64,000 nucleotides of DNA from contig NZ_MKIN01000022.1 of the NCBI RefSeq assembly GCF_001938985.1, forward strand, positions 248,001 to 312,000, read 5' to 3'. Position numbers and translations under genes: made by a program. Position 1 is the stretch's first letter. The number at the start of each line of letters is the position of its first letter. This stretch comes from Gillisella taibaishanensis (GTDB taxonomy: Bacteria > Pseudomonadota > Alphaproteobacteria > Rhizobiales > Rhizobiaceae). The notes below the pieces were generated by a model. The model had not been told where the DNA came from. It was given only the letters and a program-made list of their open reading frames with translations, and ran no database searches. Below, piece by piece: positions 163 to 50,045 of this stretch.

Positions 163-1026
163 CTAGAAGCGGCCTGTGAGACTGGCGCGCAGCAGCGTCA
201 ACTGGCGGCGCCATTGCGGACGGCGCAGAGGGCCATCGAGAACGTCGGCGCCGCGCTTGCGAGCATCGCGCAGCACAGGCTCTGCAAGCGCCACCGGCAG
301 GTAAGCAGCGTTCAGCGAGGCCGGAACCTTGCCGGCCGCACGGGCCTTGGCCAAGTGATCGAGACCGAGCCCGGAAAAGGCCTCGATAGCGCCATCGATT
401 CGCAGTCTGTCCCCACCCGCCAGGAAACTGTCGCGGTCGAGACCGGTGGCTGCGAGAACCTCGTCGGGAATATAAAGCTGCCCGCGCGCCCGATGCTGCG
501 GCATCAGCGCCAGAAGCCCCGCAATGCACTGTGCAACGCCGGCATGACCCGCGGTCTCAGCCATCGTCGCTGCCGCATCCGCATCGAGCACAAGGCTTGC
601 GAGCTGGATCAGTGCTGAAGCCGTTTCGCCGGCATAGCCTTCCAGCGCCGAACGCGGACCGATCGGATCGTCATAGAGATCGGCAATGCGGGCGTCGATC
701 ATGTCGAGCAATGGCTGCACCGGCAGGCGATAAGTCTCGACTGCCGAGGTCAGTCCAGCCGCCAGCGGATTGGCAGAGGTTTCGCCATGCCCCTTGCCGG
801 ACAGCAGGTCGCGCCAATATTGCAGCCGTATTTCGCCAGGCAGCGGCTCGCGCACGAGATCGCGTATTCGGGCGAGCTCGGCGTTGAAAGCATAAAGCGC
901 GGCCAGAGCCGGCTGCTTGTCGGACGGAGACAGAAGACAGGCGAGATAGCGGTCCCGATCGGTCTCCCTGAGGGTCGAAAGGCAGATGTCGCTGCCGGGT
1001 ACCGAAGATGCGGACAGTTCCGTCAT
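163..1026 (-). CDS. Phytoene/squalene synthase family protein
   Basis: A 287-residue protein of the trans-isoprenyl diphosphate synthase (head-to-head) family, which condenses two prenyl diphosphates. The N-terminal part carries a family-like stretch (RDRYLACLLSP, then ALYAFNAELARIRD at about residues 43-56), and LRLQYWRDLL-type residues follow near 65-75. The canonical DxxxD aspartate motifs are weak: I see DLYDD near residue 115 but no clear second one, so catalysis is not assured. It is the last gene of a minus-strand run after secDF and the Mth938-like gene, starting 3 bp after the latter's stop. Rhizobial genomes commonly keep this gene here. It may be the family's divergent member related to NDUFAF6 rather than a carotenoid or hopanoid enzyme. 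Confidence 0.75.
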   Translation of the reverse strand: MTELSASSVPGSDICLSTLRETDRDRYLACLLSPSDKQPALAALYAFNAELARIRDLVREPLPGEIRLQYWRDLLSGKGHGETSANPLAAGLTSAVETYRLPVQPLLDMIDARIADLYDDPIGPRSALEGYAGETASALIQLASLVLDADAAATMAETAGHAGVAQCIAGLLALMPQHRARGQLYIPDEVLAATGLDRDSFLAGGDRLRIDGAIEAFSGLGLDHLAKARAAGKVPASLNAAYLPVALAEPVLRDARKRGADVLDGPLRRPQWRRQLTLLRASLTGRF

Positions 1027-5787: not shown

Positions 5788-7428
5788 CTATTCCAGGAAG
5801 CCCATCGGGTTGACGGGTGTTGCGTCCTTGCGCACTTCGAAATGCAGGGTCGGCTGGGTGGCGTTGCCGCTCATGCCTGACGTTGCGACCTGCTGGCCGC
5901 GCTGAACCTTCTGGCCCCGCTGAACCGAAATTGCATCGGCGTGGCCGTATACGGTGACCGTGCCGTCGTCGTGGCGCACGAGAACTGTGTTGCCGAGTTC
6001 CTTCAACCCGTTGCCAGCATAGATAACCACACCGTTTTCGGCCGCCTTGACCGGGGTGCCAGCCGGCACCGAGATGTCGATACCGTCATTGCGCTTGCCG
6101 GCGACATTGGCGCCGAAGGGTGCAACGACTGCGCCGCGCACGGGCCAGCGGTATTTGCCGATGCCGGTTGCATCGGGAGCCTTGTCGCCCGGATCTGCCG
6201 AGGCAACATCGGTGACCGACTTGGTCGGAGCGGCAGCTGCAGGAGCAGCAGCGGTGACCGGAGCAGACTTCGCAACTTCTGCCTTGGCAGCAGCTGGCGA
6301 GGCGCTGACCGGCGTTGCGGCCAGCTTCTGATCAGCCTGCGGCAGTTCCAGCGTCTGGCCAACCCGCACGCCCTGAGCGCCGAGATGATTGGCCTGTTTC
6401 AGGGCTGCAACCGAAACATTGTTTTCGCGAGCAATCTTGGCAAGCGAATCGCCTGGCTTGACGACATAGGAGCCAGCCGGCGGCGGGGTTTTGCCGGAGC
6501 CTGCGGCATTCGTCGCATTGTTGGCGGCGATATCAGTCTTGACCTTGTCGCGCAGCTTCGGATTGGTCGGGAGGACCGCGAGCTTCTCTTCCTGATGCGG
6601 GCCGGGGCCTGGCTGCTGACCTGGCGGCAGCAGCGTACCTTCCGCAGCAGCGGCACGGGTCGGCGTGCTGCGCGATCCGAAGGTCGGGATCAGGATCGAC
6701 TGGCCGGGACGCGCAGCCCCTGCCGTCGACAAGCCGTTGGCCTTGACGATTTCTTTTTCCGGCACGCCGTAGCGCTGGGACAGCGTTGCAATGCTTTCGC
6801 CTGGCTTCAGCACGACGCGCGGTGCGTTGACCGTGCTCCAACCATTCGCGCCCTGACCGTTGGCACCTGGAGCACCTTGGCTTGCCAACGCCGGCTTTGT
6901 CGGCGCGGCAATGGTGTTGGTGGACATGCTGTCTCCGTCCTCAACCGCAGCGGCGGCCTGATGACCAGCGGACGGGAAAGGTGCAGCTGAGGCCATCTGG
7001 CGGCGTGACGAGATCGGACCTGACGACGCCGTCGAACCAGACGGCGGAGCAAGTTCAGACTTCTGCACCGAAGATGCACGCCGGGCTGGCGAATAGGTCT
7101 GCGCCGGATAGGGCTGCGTCATCGCCTGCTGGCGATTGTTGTAACCGCCGCCCGTCGAACCACCGCCCATCGAACCGCCGCCCATCGAACCGCCGGACGA
7201 AGCATAGCCGCCCCCTGCGCCATCGACATCAGCCTGGGGAACAGGCGCAGCATTCAAACCGGTGATCTGACCGCCAGTAGAGGCTGTCGTCATCGAATCG
7301 GTTTTGGAAAAGACACCTGCAAAACGGCTGGAGTCGGAACTGCAACCAGTCGCGACGCTTGCCATCAGGCCAACCCAGACGATCTGGGCAACAGGCATGC
7401 CGGATTTAGAAGACTGACTCTGACGCAT
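5788..7428 (-). CDS. LysM-LysM-LytM lipoprotein, degenerate M23 (DipM/NlpD-like)
   Basis: A 546-residue envelope protein. The N-terminal signal ends at a lipobox-like SVATGC, so it is probably lipid-anchored. A Gly/Ser/Pro/Ala-rich linker with GGSMGGG-type repeats follows, then LysM 1 (about residues 204-246), LysM 2 (about 318-361, YVVKPGDSLAKIA) and a C-terminal M23/LytM domain (about 421-546). The zinc site is broken: the usual HxGxD is NDGID and the usual HxH is TLH. This is the state seen in NlpD, EnvC and some DipM proteins, which activate amidases rather than cut peptidoglycan. I therefore infer a division-linked amidase activator that binds septal glycan. The start at ATG 7428 is preferred over an upstream start at 7455. 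It is a monocistron ended by the 5706-5735 hairpin. Confidence 0.88.
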   Translation of the reverse strand: MRQSQSSKSGMPVAQIVWVGLMASVATGCSSDSSRFAGVFSKTDSMTTASTGGQITGLNAAPVPQADVDGAGGGYASSGGSMGGGSMGGGSTGGGYNNRQQAMTQPYPAQTYSPARRASSVQKSELAPPSGSTASSGPISSRRQMASAAPFPSAGHQAAAAVEDGDSMSTNTIAAPTKPALASQGAPGANGQGANGWSTVNAPRVVLKPGESIATLSQRYGVPEKEIVKANGLSTAGAARPGQSILIPTFGSRSTPTRAAAAEGTLLPPGQQPGPGPHQEEKLAVLPTNPKLRDKVKTDIAANNATNAAGSGKTPPPAGSYVVKPGDSLAKIARENNVSVAALKQANHLGAQGVRVGQTLELPQADQKLAATPVSASPAAAKAEVAKSAPVTAAAPAAAAPTKSVTDVASADPGDKAPDATGIGKYRWPVRGAVVAPFGANVAGKRNDGIDISVPAGTPVKAAENGVVIYAGNGLKELGNTVLVRHDDGTVTVYGHADAISVQRGQKVQRGQQVATSGMSGNATQPTLHFEVRKDATPVNPMGFLE

Positions 7429-47213: not shown

Positions 47214-48569
47214 TCAAGCGTTTAACGCGACTGCAGTTAAAGAGTGATCGTTGAAGACCCGGTTGCGGCCATTCTGCTTGGCTAGATAGAGATACTGGTC
47301 GGCTGCATTCAGATAATTGTCGAATGTCTCGCGTCCGCCGACTTCCGCCACGCCAACGGAAACGGTCAGCCCCACCTCGCCGGCTGCGAGAACGACGCGC
47401 CCCTGGGCCAGATGCTCGCGCAGGCCGTCGCAAAACACCTGGGCTTGACCACTATCCATATCGGGCATCAGGATCCCGAATTCCTCGCCGCCAAGCCGCC
47501 CCAGCAGAACCGAAGTATTGCTGGCATAGGCCGTCATTCGGTCGGCTACGTGTTTAAGCACCCGGTCGCCGGCTTCGTGGCCATGGGTATCGTTAAGCCG
47601 CTTGAAGTGATCGACATCGACGATCGCTACGCTGCAGGCGCGGTTATGCAGCAGACATTGCTCGACCAATACAGGCCCTTGGCTGAAGAAATAGCGGCGG
47701 TTGTTCAATCCGGTCAGATAGTCCTTGAAGGCTGCCGAGCGCAGCTGCCGAATCTGCAGCAGCGCTTGCACATGCAAGTCGATGCGGCATTGCAACTCCT
47801 CGGTGACATAGGGCCGATAGACGAAATCGCTGGCACCGGCTTTCAGGAAACTTGCCGACAGCAGTCGGTCCGCAGAAGAGGAAATTCCGATAATGCGCAG
47901 ATCGGCATTGGCATAGAGCGAGCGGATCGTACGGGTCAGCTCATACCCGTTCATGTCGGGCATGTGGTAGTCGGTCAGGACGAGCGAAACTTCCTTTTCC
48001 TCCGCCAGAATTTCCAAGGCCTGACGCCCGGTTCGGGCTTGCAGCACCTGGAACCCCTGGAGAACAAGCATATCCACCAGCCCAAGCCGCGCCGAGACCA
48101 TATCGTCGACGACAAGCACCTTGAAAGCCCGGTTCGCCAAAAGCCGCTTCACCGAGGTAATGACGACATCCATCGCCCGGTCATTGTCCTTGACGATGTA
48201 ATCGGCAACGCCGCGCCCGATGATCTGTTCGCGAATATGGAGGTTGAACGTCCCGGTGAAGACCACGACAGGTATGCTCCGCGCGATAACCGCGTCCAGC
48301 ATTTCGCCATCCTCAGCCCCTGGTATCTGCAATCCCGCGATCGCTATGTCGAAATGGCAGTCCTCCCGCGACAGGACGGCACGGCACATATCGGCGCTCA
48401 TGCAACAGGTGACCTCGGCCCCGAGGCTGGTGCGCAGCCGGTGCTCGAGCAGACGGGAAATCGAACGAGAATCCTCGATCAGCAGGACCCTGAGCGGCGC
48501 ACCGGAAGACGGTCCGCCGCCCAGTCCGACAATGTCAAACAGTTCAGATAGTGGCACGTCCTTCTCCAT
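47214..48569 (-). CDS. Double-receiver GGDEF response regulator (PleD-like)
   Basis: A 451-residue response regulator and diguanylate cyclase. Receiver 1 (about residues 26-145) has its phosphoacceptor Asp replaced by Gly79 (AIAGLQIPG). Receiver 2 (about 149-270) keeps Asp200 (VLTDYHMPD). The GGDEF domain ends the chain with an intact GGEEF (360-364). The inhibitory RxxD I-site is absent: residues 351-354 are NTSV. It makes c-di-GMP, probably when receiver 2 is phosphorylated. It shares its receiver layout with the next gene upstream at 49031-49864. The arrangement is PleD-like, but the live and dead receivers are swapped in order. Confidence 0.9.
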   Translation of the reverse strand: MEKDVPLSELFDIVGLGGGPSSGAPLRVLLIEDSRSISRLLEHRLRTSLGAEVTCCMSADMCRAVLSREDCHFDIAIAGLQIPGAEDGEMLDAVIARSIPVVVFTGTFNLHIREQIIGRGVADYIVKDNDRAMDVVITSVKRLLANRAFKVLVVDDMVSARLGLVDMLVLQGFQVLQARTGRQALEILAEEKEVSLVLTDYHMPDMNGYELTRTIRSLYANADLRIIGISSSADRLLSASFLKAGASDFVYRPYVTEELQCRIDLHVQALLQIRQLRSAAFKDYLTGLNNRRYFFSQGPVLVEQCLLHNRACSVAIVDVDHFKRLNDTHGHEAGDRVLKHVADRMTAYASNTSVLLGRLGGEEFGILMPDMDSGQAQVFCDGLREHLAQGRVVLAAGEVGLTVSVGVAEVGGRETFDNYLNAADQYLYLAKQNGRNRVFNDHSLTAVALNA

Positions 48570-48913
48570 GGCCTCCCGGCGTCAGGCGTCAGGCAATACC
48601 TGCCCAATCACACCGCGCCATTGCTTCGGAAAAGCACCGCTGCGCCTTCAACGGCGGATCAGAGCATTCCCGCATAGTGCTGCTTCCAACGTGCAATCGC
48701 GAATACTCGTATTCATCGGAAGAAAAGGATGGGCCGCATCGCGGAAAATCAAATTAGCCGTCACGGCAGTCGGATTGAAAGCCGCATATTATAACTGCAC
48801 CAACCGGACTGCAGCGGCATATGCTCCATTGCATATCGCCAAGAGGCTTGTCCTCAGCGGCGCTGGCATCGTCTAACGCCGGTGTTCAGCCACCGATTAT
48901 GCCGATGTAGGGC

Positions 48914-48934
48914 GCTCCAGCTTTCAGCTGGAGC
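48914..48934. repeat. Short palindrome
   Basis: Perfect GCTCCAGC/GCTGGAGC with a five-base loop. A terminator for the 49031 gene is possible, but there is no U-run. Confidence 0.4.
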
Positions 48935-48982
48935 ATCGAACATAAAATTTGGAACCCGCGCAATTCTCGCGGCTGCTTTTCC

Positions 48983-49024
48983 GCATCGGATCTACTCGAA
49001 AACCGGCTCCCTTTTCGACCCGCG
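48983..49024. repeat. Rhizobial palindromic repeat, second copy
   Basis: Shares GCATCGGA and CTCGAAAACCGG with the 43315-43360 unit, but the right end is degenerate (CTTTTCGACCC). It lies at the 3' end of the response-regulator gene. Confidence 0.6.
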
Positions 49025-49030
49025 CCAAGG

Positions 49031-49864
49031 TCAGGCTGCGGCCTGATTGCGCTTGCGGCCCGCGCGGATCTGCACCAAAGTGTCAAGGTTCTGGTTGACG
49101 CGGCAGTAGAACTCCTCATCGATAAACGGCCGCAGCATAAAATCGTTGCCGCCAACCTTCAGGAAGCGAGCCGACAGCAACCGATCGGAGGAGGAGGAAA
49201 CGCCGATGATGCGCAATTCATGCGATCCGCGAACCGCACGTATGCGGCGGGTCAGTTCAAAGCCGTCAATGTCGGGCATGTTATAGTCGGTGACGACAAG
49301 ACCGATATCGGCGTTGCTCTTGAGAAGCTGGAGCGCATTGGCACCGTTATCTGCAGTGCTGACGCGGAAATTGTAGCGTTTCAGGCGGCTCGACAGCAAT
49401 GCACGCGCAGTCGGGCTATCGTCGACAATCAGGACGTGGTGATTGTGATTGGTCAGGAAGCGGCAAACAGACTCGATCAGCATTTCAACTGCGAAGATAT
49501 TGTCCTTGAGAATGTAATCGACAATATCCTTCGCCAAAAGCTTTTCACGGGTTTTCTCATGAAACGTGCTGGTAAAGACGATGGTCGGAATGCTCAGATC
49601 GGTTAAATATTCGAGCGCCTCACCGTTTTCAGCGCCTGGCAAGTTTATATTCGAGATTGCGAGTGTCACCGGCTCGTCAGAAAGCTCGTTGGCGGCCATC
49701 AGATCTTCGTAGGTACGGCAAATTTCCGCGTCTATATTGAATATTTCTTTCAAACGCTGCGATATCATTGATGTAAAAACGTTGGAGTCTTCCGCGACAA
49801 TAATACGTGCGTCCGGGAATTTTTCGCCCGAATATTGCATTCCTGAAACGCCAAGATAGGTCAT
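49031..49864 (-). CDS. Double-receiver response regulator
   Basis: A 277-residue protein made of two receiver domains and no output. Receiver 1 has Asn72 in place of the phosphoacceptor (AISNINLPG). Receiver 2 has Asp193 (VVTDYNMPD). The DDSPTARALL and SSSSDRLLSARFLK parts align closely with the GGDEF protein at 47214-48569, so the two arose from one another. It probably acts by protein contact, such as titrating the kinase of its sister. The start ATG has GAAGG six bases upstream. A short Lys/Arg tail ends it. Confidence 0.88.
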   Translation of the reverse strand: MTYLGVSGMQYSGEKFPDARIIVAEDSNVFTSMISQRLKEIFNIDAEICRTYEDLMAANELSDEPVTLAISNINLPGAENGEALEYLTDLSIPTIVFTSTFHEKTREKLLAKDIVDYILKDNIFAVEMLIESVCRFLTNHNHHVLIVDDSPTARALLSSRLKRYNFRVSTADNGANALQLLKSNADIGLVVTDYNMPDIDGFELTRRIRAVRGSHELRIIGVSSSSDRLLSARFLKVGGNDFMLRPFIDEEFYCRVNQNLDTLVQIRAGRKRNQAAA

Positions 49865-49964
49865 GACACGCCTTCGAAAAAATGATCTTGCCGTAACATA
49901 GACATGATCGATTGCTGAAATATTAATTGAAACCGCAAGTTATACCTTGTATGCTTAATAAACG

Positions 49965-49996
49965 AAAAAGGCGGCTCCCCATGGAGCCGCCTTTTT
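49965..49996 (-). terminator. Terminator after the dehydrogenase gene
   Basis: GGCGGCTCC/GGAGCCGCC stem with AAAAA before and TTTTT after, about 50 bases past the minus-strand stop at 50046. Confidence 0.9.
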
Positions 49997-50045
49997 CAGA
50001 AGAGTTGGTTTGTTAAGAGACGCGGGTAGTAAATCGTAGCGCCGA

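Follow-up and report, generated by a model that had tools for sequence, protein, structure and literature searches.

Two neighbouring genes of Gillisella taibaishanensis encode proteins with two receivers in tandem, and in both proteins the phospho-acceptor of receiver 1 is missing. We asked whether these two losses are of the same kind, and what receivers altered in this way may still do. A preliminary description had presented the pair as sister regulators, each with a dead first receiver and a live second one, an arrangement that would reverse that of PleD. Its basic readings were confirmed: both open reading frames lie on the minus strand where it had placed them, and the phospho-positions are Gly79 and Asp200 in the 451-residue protein (A) and Asn72 and Asp193 in the 277-residue protein (B). 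The features considered here, located in the 64,000-nucleotide stretch of DNA that was analysed (the window), are collected in Table 1.

Table 1. Features of the B-A locus, with their positions in the window
Feature	Position	Strand	Basis or remark
Gene B, receiver-only double receiver, 277 aa (P0002)	49031..49864	-	ORF reading, Pfam, AlphaFold2 model
Domain limits of B: receiver 1, residues ~18-137; receiver 2, ~138-268; long C-terminal helix, 245-276			
Ser71-Asn72 of B, Asn at the receiver 1 phospho-position, Ser before it	49649..49654	-	Asn in 151/151 distinct B
Asp193 of B, receiver 2 phospho-acceptor position	49286..49288	-	Asp in 151/151 distinct B
Arg245 of B, replacing the receiver 2 active-site Lys	49130..49132	-	Arg in 151/151 distinct B
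Gene A, receiver-receiver-GGDEF protein, 451 aa (P0001)	47214..48569	-	ORF reading, Pfam; GGEEF active-site motif present
Gly79 of A, receiver 1 phospho-acceptor lost	48333..48335	-	Window sequence and A alignment
Asp200 of A, receiver 2 phospho-position	47970..47972	-	Window sequence
Arg252 of A, where the receiver 2 active-site Lys belongs	47814..47816	-	Window sequence
Terminator-like hairpin upstream of B	49963..49998	-	16-bp stem and T-rich tail

Two Pfam Response_reg stretches are found in each protein, which confirms the receiver fold in A and B alike. A GGDEF domain is present only in A, as had been claimed (Pfam 122.7 bits, cut-off 23.8), and it includes the GG(D/E)EF motif, here GGEEF, that is, the sequence hallmark of a diguanylate cyclase. 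Judged by sequence, A and B are paralogs, and the likeness previously noted extends over both receivers (107/267 residues identical, 40%; BLASTP E 7e-68). On the minus strand B precedes A, with a gap of 461 bases. This gap (window 48570-49030) is unusually long and contains a perfect palindromic stem near 48940. The hairpin upstream of B makes it likely that B is transcribed from its own start, the hairpin scan being weak when taken alone (3 such sites, 2.3 expected in shuffles). The conserved Cys49 is a thinkable site of redox control. None of the 41 HATPase_c matches of the genome lies inside the window, and a regular expression of untried sensitivity detected a kinase-like open reading frame at one of 99 loci of relatives (L121). 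A literature search that reached few subscription papers returned nothing on the B/A pair in Rhizobiaceae.

Residue counts refer to distinct sequences after strict duplicate removal, namely 151 of B, 105 of A and 29 outside relatives from elsewhere in the phylum, the latter drawn from the top matches of a longer list, where 6-8 candidates per genome were scored at first. The active-site positions of B read E25, D26, N72, T98 and K120 in receiver 1 and D148, D149, D193, S223 and R245 in receiver 2, and this pattern (EDNT.K / DDDS.R) is present in all 151 B sequences, at identities down to 69%. The pocket of receiver 1 around the Asn (E25, D26, T98, K120) is invariant, and in receiver 2 the aromatic residue F242 is kept, as are D148, D149, D193 and S223. 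Asn72 is preceded by Ser in 148 of the B sequences and by Thr in the other 3; a hydroxyl residue occupies the corresponding position in 13/105 A (all Thr) and in 1/29 outside relatives. Invariance of Asn and Arg throughout B, while A keeps the receiver 1 Asp in 92/105 sequences, argues that they were not fixed by chance. According to the accessible text of PMC12632262, pseudo-receivers have lost at least one of five active-site residues, and protein contacts are one proposed mode of their action; the same text states that substitutions at the receiver Lys need not abolish phosphorylation. Receiver 1 (Asn) and receiver 2 (Arg) of B are both altered in this sense in 151/151 sequences and, on its residues, B has no complete receiver. 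Of the proposed dead first receiver, the loss of the Asp is borne out for B, where it is universal. As to the live second receivers, the Asp-Asp-Asp-Ser set is indeed kept in both proteins, but neither is plainly live, as the Lys is Arg in A and in B. In Sinorhizobium meliloti Ak57 (L240, 7938-8830) two reading frames share the B gene, whereas that of Sinorhizobium sp. M103 (L241) is whole.

The situation of A is different in kind. In the window, its receivers read E32, D33, G79, T105 and K127, and D155, D156, D200, S230 and R252, so that both are of the pseudo-receiver type by their residues (Gly in receiver 1, Arg in receiver 2). Among the 105 distinct A sequences, however, the receiver 1 phospho-position is Asp in 92, Gly in 11 and Ala in 2, and a complete receiver 2 is found in none; the combination of a complete receiver 1 with an incomplete receiver 2 occurs in 92, and neither is complete in 13. 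A dead receiver 1 as a trait shared by the pair is thus ruled out, since most homologs of A, but not those of B, keep the Asp, and the reversal of PleD cannot be upheld as the norm. In the outside relatives both receivers are complete in 26/29, only receiver 1 in 2 and only receiver 2 in 1; receiver 2 is complete in 27/29, and its Lys is present in 28/29 (27 with Asp and 1 with Gly at the phospho-position). The closest relative of window A, in A. vitis (L087), has Asp, and Gly79 is accordingly a derived loss. Two of the 13 Asp-less A adjoin B, that of the window and that of Rhizobium oryzicola (L103). The other 11 are not beside B (G003, G007, G009, G042, G123, G136, G209, G228, two in G262, and L242, a copy on a plasmid of Allorhizobium pseudoryzae); L301, among the 13, matches receiver 1 only partly. 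Where genomes have A without B, Asp is kept (9/9), and GGEEF is retained in 33/33 named loci with a full A sister. Dispersed receiver-receiver-GGDEF copies from genomes or records where no A adjoins B (L242, L250-L258, L301) lack the receiver 1 Asp in 11/11 cases.

In a tree of 98 sequences, all B group together with support 100/100; their stem is long, at 1.18 changes per column, and the branches after it are short. Six dispersed Gly copies also form a clade (100/99), and window A is sister to the A of G011. The receiver 1 Asp is lost four times on this tree: in B, in the dispersed clade, in window A and in L103. L176, a sequence whose source belongs to a different family of this order, groups within A, and a joint clade of A plus B is rejected (p-AU 0.0101). 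A duplication confined to the family is thus unsupported as the origin of the pair; either the split was not a simple in-family duplication or the genes have moved.

The distribution of the two genes was analysed in 297 genomes of the family, 79 of which have a B match at E 1e-30 or better in a first scan that scored 6-8 candidates for each genome. B (identity 66% or higher) was found in 70 genomes, A in 59 and both in 50; in 42 of the latter, A comes directly after B and shares its strand. When the 20 genomes with B only were searched with A, G201 and G315 yielded a more divergent adjacent A and the other 18 none; a form of A without receivers, used as query on these 20, gave nothing beyond the two. 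With both added, 52 genomes have the two genes, adjacent on the same strand in 44; B occurs without A in 18/70 genomes and A alone in 9. The possibility that the genes are never adjacent elsewhere is thereby ruled out, and adjacency is frequent. Within the genus (24 genomes), B is present in 23 (the exception being a genome 66% complete) and A in 20, with the two adjacent in 17. The named loci are the best 80 of 361 and consequently lie close to the query. Among them, B is followed by a full A in 33, by a receiver-less GGDEF-like gene in 15 and by no GGDEF gene within 3 kb in 31, and one locus ends early. The A sister lacks GGDEF, being receiver-only as well, in G177 and G295, and A is absent from L088, L089, G014 and G023. 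In L088 and L089 (A. vitis) it is missing between conserved flanks; B is 98-99% identical to window B there, as in the nearest named loci as a whole (L087-L089), which suggest that the genome of the window belongs to the Allorhizobium/Agrobacterium vitis group.

The receiver-less genes lie right after B (L131, L132, L135, L137, L144-L150, L152, L154, L158 and L165, at ~5850-6500). In 13/15 loci they start 15-20 nt past the stop of B; of the other two, L165 has a distance of 69 nt and L144 gave no start. The second Gly of their GG(D/E)EF motif is replaced in 15/15, which makes it unlikely that this form produces c-di-GMP. A conserved C-terminal stretch, ETFDNYLNAA, is common to these genes and window A.

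The two genes evolve under very different constraint. Between the window and A. vitis L087, B is 98.9% identical (1.1% of residues differ; omega 0.009), A is 71.7% identical (28% differ; omega 0.15) and the neighbouring genes have omega 0.044-0.091, all these values being rough, as they come from simple pairwise counting at dS ~0.7-1.6, near or above 1. When compared with the A-less strain L088, B has omega 0.011, and is thus as conserved as where A is present. For the receiver-less relatives of A, omega is 0.11-0.47, against 0.005-0.074 for B in the part of the locus pairs compared. Judged from these values, B is nearly frozen, A is fast-evolving, and the receiver-less genes are under purifying selection.

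An AlphaFold2 model of B (mean pLDDT 88) consists of two (beta-alpha)5 units and superimposes on 3luf with Z 28.1 and rmsd 2.9 over 245 residues at 34% identity; 3mf4 is likewise matched over both receivers. Invariant positions are unevenly distributed. In receiver 2 they make up 8/9 of alpha4 and 14/16 of the start of alpha5; in receiver 1, 1/9 of alpha4 and 9/10 of the beta3-alpha3 loop. Alpha1, the usual kinase-facing helix of receivers, has 8/13 invariant positions in receiver 2 versus 4/15 in receiver 1. This pattern suggests that receiver 1 retains its pocket and that receiver 2 offers a face for contacts, although the invariant alpha4/alpha5 side could instead be an internal contact between the two receivers.

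Several characterised proteins resemble A or B in part. The structural genomics entries 3luf and 3mf4, which we take to be the receiver pair of an Aeromonas response regulator/GGDEF protein, have the same two-receiver layout and match both proteins over the full length of the receiver pair (E 4.5e-43 for B, 1.4e-42 for A). 3luf keeps Asp in both receivers, whereas in B the first is Asn and GGDEF is missing; receiver 2 of 3luf also lacks the Lys, so that the Lys change is not special to the B/A family. The best NCBIfam match of both A and B is CbrR of Campylobacter jejuni (NF050064), with scores of 226.3 bits for A and 143.2 for B that are far below the cut-off of 600, and neither is a CbrR equivalog. 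CbrR is described in the accessible text of PMC8779298 as a receiver-receiver-GGDEF orphan regulator without a linked kinase, with two predicted phospho-Asp residues (D53 and D174) and the divergent active site SAEKI. PleD of Caulobacter has a functional receiver 1 and a degenerate receiver 2 in the account that PMC12632262 makes accessible, followed by GGDEF, the same pattern as 92/105 A. As receiver 1 is intact and receiver 2 never complete, the typical A resembles PleD rather than reversing it; window A departs from it in lacking the receiver 1 phospho-Asp. Neither protein is a PleD equivalog (PRK09581: A 197.5 and B 68.9 bits, against 474), and PleD aligns poorly with the B model as a unit (rmsd 12.0, TM 0.43). 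B differs from the reviewed pseudo-receivers in having two in tandem and no output domain, with both altered alike throughout the family; the accessible part of PMC12632262 describes no protein like B, and the word 'tandem' is absent from that text. For a ShkA-type pseudo-receiver, the portion of PMC7010744 at hand places a c-di-GMP site on the beta5-alpha5 surface, with Tyr338.

Taking these results together, we give a probability of about one half to the reading that takes B for an adaptor made of two pseudo-receivers, with a putative conserved partner of its own, and A for a dispensable, fast-evolving diguanylate cyclase that is normally switchable through receiver 1. From the sequences, their conservation, the tree and the gene distribution we infer a contact mechanism, a partner and an activity along the following lines. 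The common ancestor of A and B would have been a receiver-receiver-GGDEF protein of the 3luf/CbrR type with both receivers complete. In the B lineage GGDEF would have been lost, Asn fixed for Asp in receiver 1 and Arg for Lys in receiver 2. As its sites are altered alike in all relatives examined, B probably works by touching proteins and not as the usual phosphate switch; the contacts would be made chiefly by the alpha4/alpha5 side of receiver 2, which hardly varies, and the conserved partner of B need not be A. Receiver 1, with its pocket kept and unphosphorylatable on Asp, may set the conformation. Receiver 2 may yet be phosphorylated on Asp193, with signalling altered by the Arg. In most relatives A would be a cyclase that receiver 1 can switch and, as in PleD, its receiver 2 would act as a degenerate adaptor. 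Window A lacks this switch because of Gly79; probably it is no longer coupled to phosphorylation, takes its input from receiver 2, or is nearing loss. Against B as an adaptor, its invariant receiver 2 Asp-Asp-Asp-Ser is more readily explained by a phosphorylated receiver than by a purely structural one, the frequent B-A order and the 15 receiver-less followers point to a B-A partnership, and neither a partner nor a kinase or phenotype came to light.

In another reading, B is an ordinary one-site receiver, Asp193 being phosphorylated by an unlinked kinase despite the Arg while receiver 1 serves as a passive adaptor, the PleD order reversed as in the preliminary description. Conservation of D148, D149, D193, S223 and F242, the more invariant alpha1 of receiver 2, and 3luf, where Gln replaces the Lys and Asp is kept, speak for it; yet the Lys is Arg in 151/151 B when 28/29 outside relatives have Lys, and the near-absence of kinase genes from the window and neighbouring loci (0/41 matches; 1/99 by the regular expression of untried sensitivity) offers it little, so that we consider it unlikely. 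That B is a dedicated regulator of A, as a receiver heterodimer holding or releasing GGDEF or as a competitor for its kinase, follows the preliminary description and is rather improbable. Such a role would account for A directly downstream of B in 44/52 genomes, for the constrained receiver-less genes at 15 of the best 80 named loci, and for receiver-only sisters in G177 and G295, and it may apply where both genes are present. As the main role it is weakened by the 18/70 genomes with B and no A, with B equally conserved and not relaxed after the loss of A (L088); A without B in 9 genomes, 31 of the best 80 named loci without a downstream GGDEF gene, and the loss of the motif Gly in 15/15 receiver-less genes argue against it further. 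As for A, it is a tentative but real possibility that the window copy is a decaying gene in which Gly79 is one decay step with no special link to B: it is 72% identical to its L087 counterpart versus 99% for B, the gene is gone from four relatives, and Asp was lost four times on the tree, but the frame is intact with GGEEF and omega, at 0.15, is still below 1. A very improbable variant, by analogy, would make B receiver 1 a natural counterpart of CheY D57N, taking a phosphoryl group on Ser71 in a two-site switch with the Asp beside Arg in receiver 2. That laboratory mutant (Appleby and Bourret) is reportedly phosphorylated on Ser56; like B receiver 1, it has Ser-Asn at the phospho-site and an otherwise unaltered active site, whereas the Asn of B is natural and fixed.

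By sequence, then, the locus holds a real and well-conserved feature, and the two losses differ in kind: a fixed double alteration in B and a local loss in A. How pseudo-receivers switch is given as an open question in the accessible text of PMC12632262. B is a clean natural case of it, with two pseudo-receivers standing alone, the same two substitutions throughout and strong constraint, and its neighbour A is a paralog in which most species retain the ancestral phospho-site and whose deletion leaves B unchanged. Comparing the residues of B and A would bear on the in vivo effect of the Asp to Asn and Lys to Arg changes. The case also cautions that a receiver should not be declared live on the strength of its Asp only. 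The host bacterium is plant-associated, and c-di-GMP is the signal made by enzymes of the kind of A.
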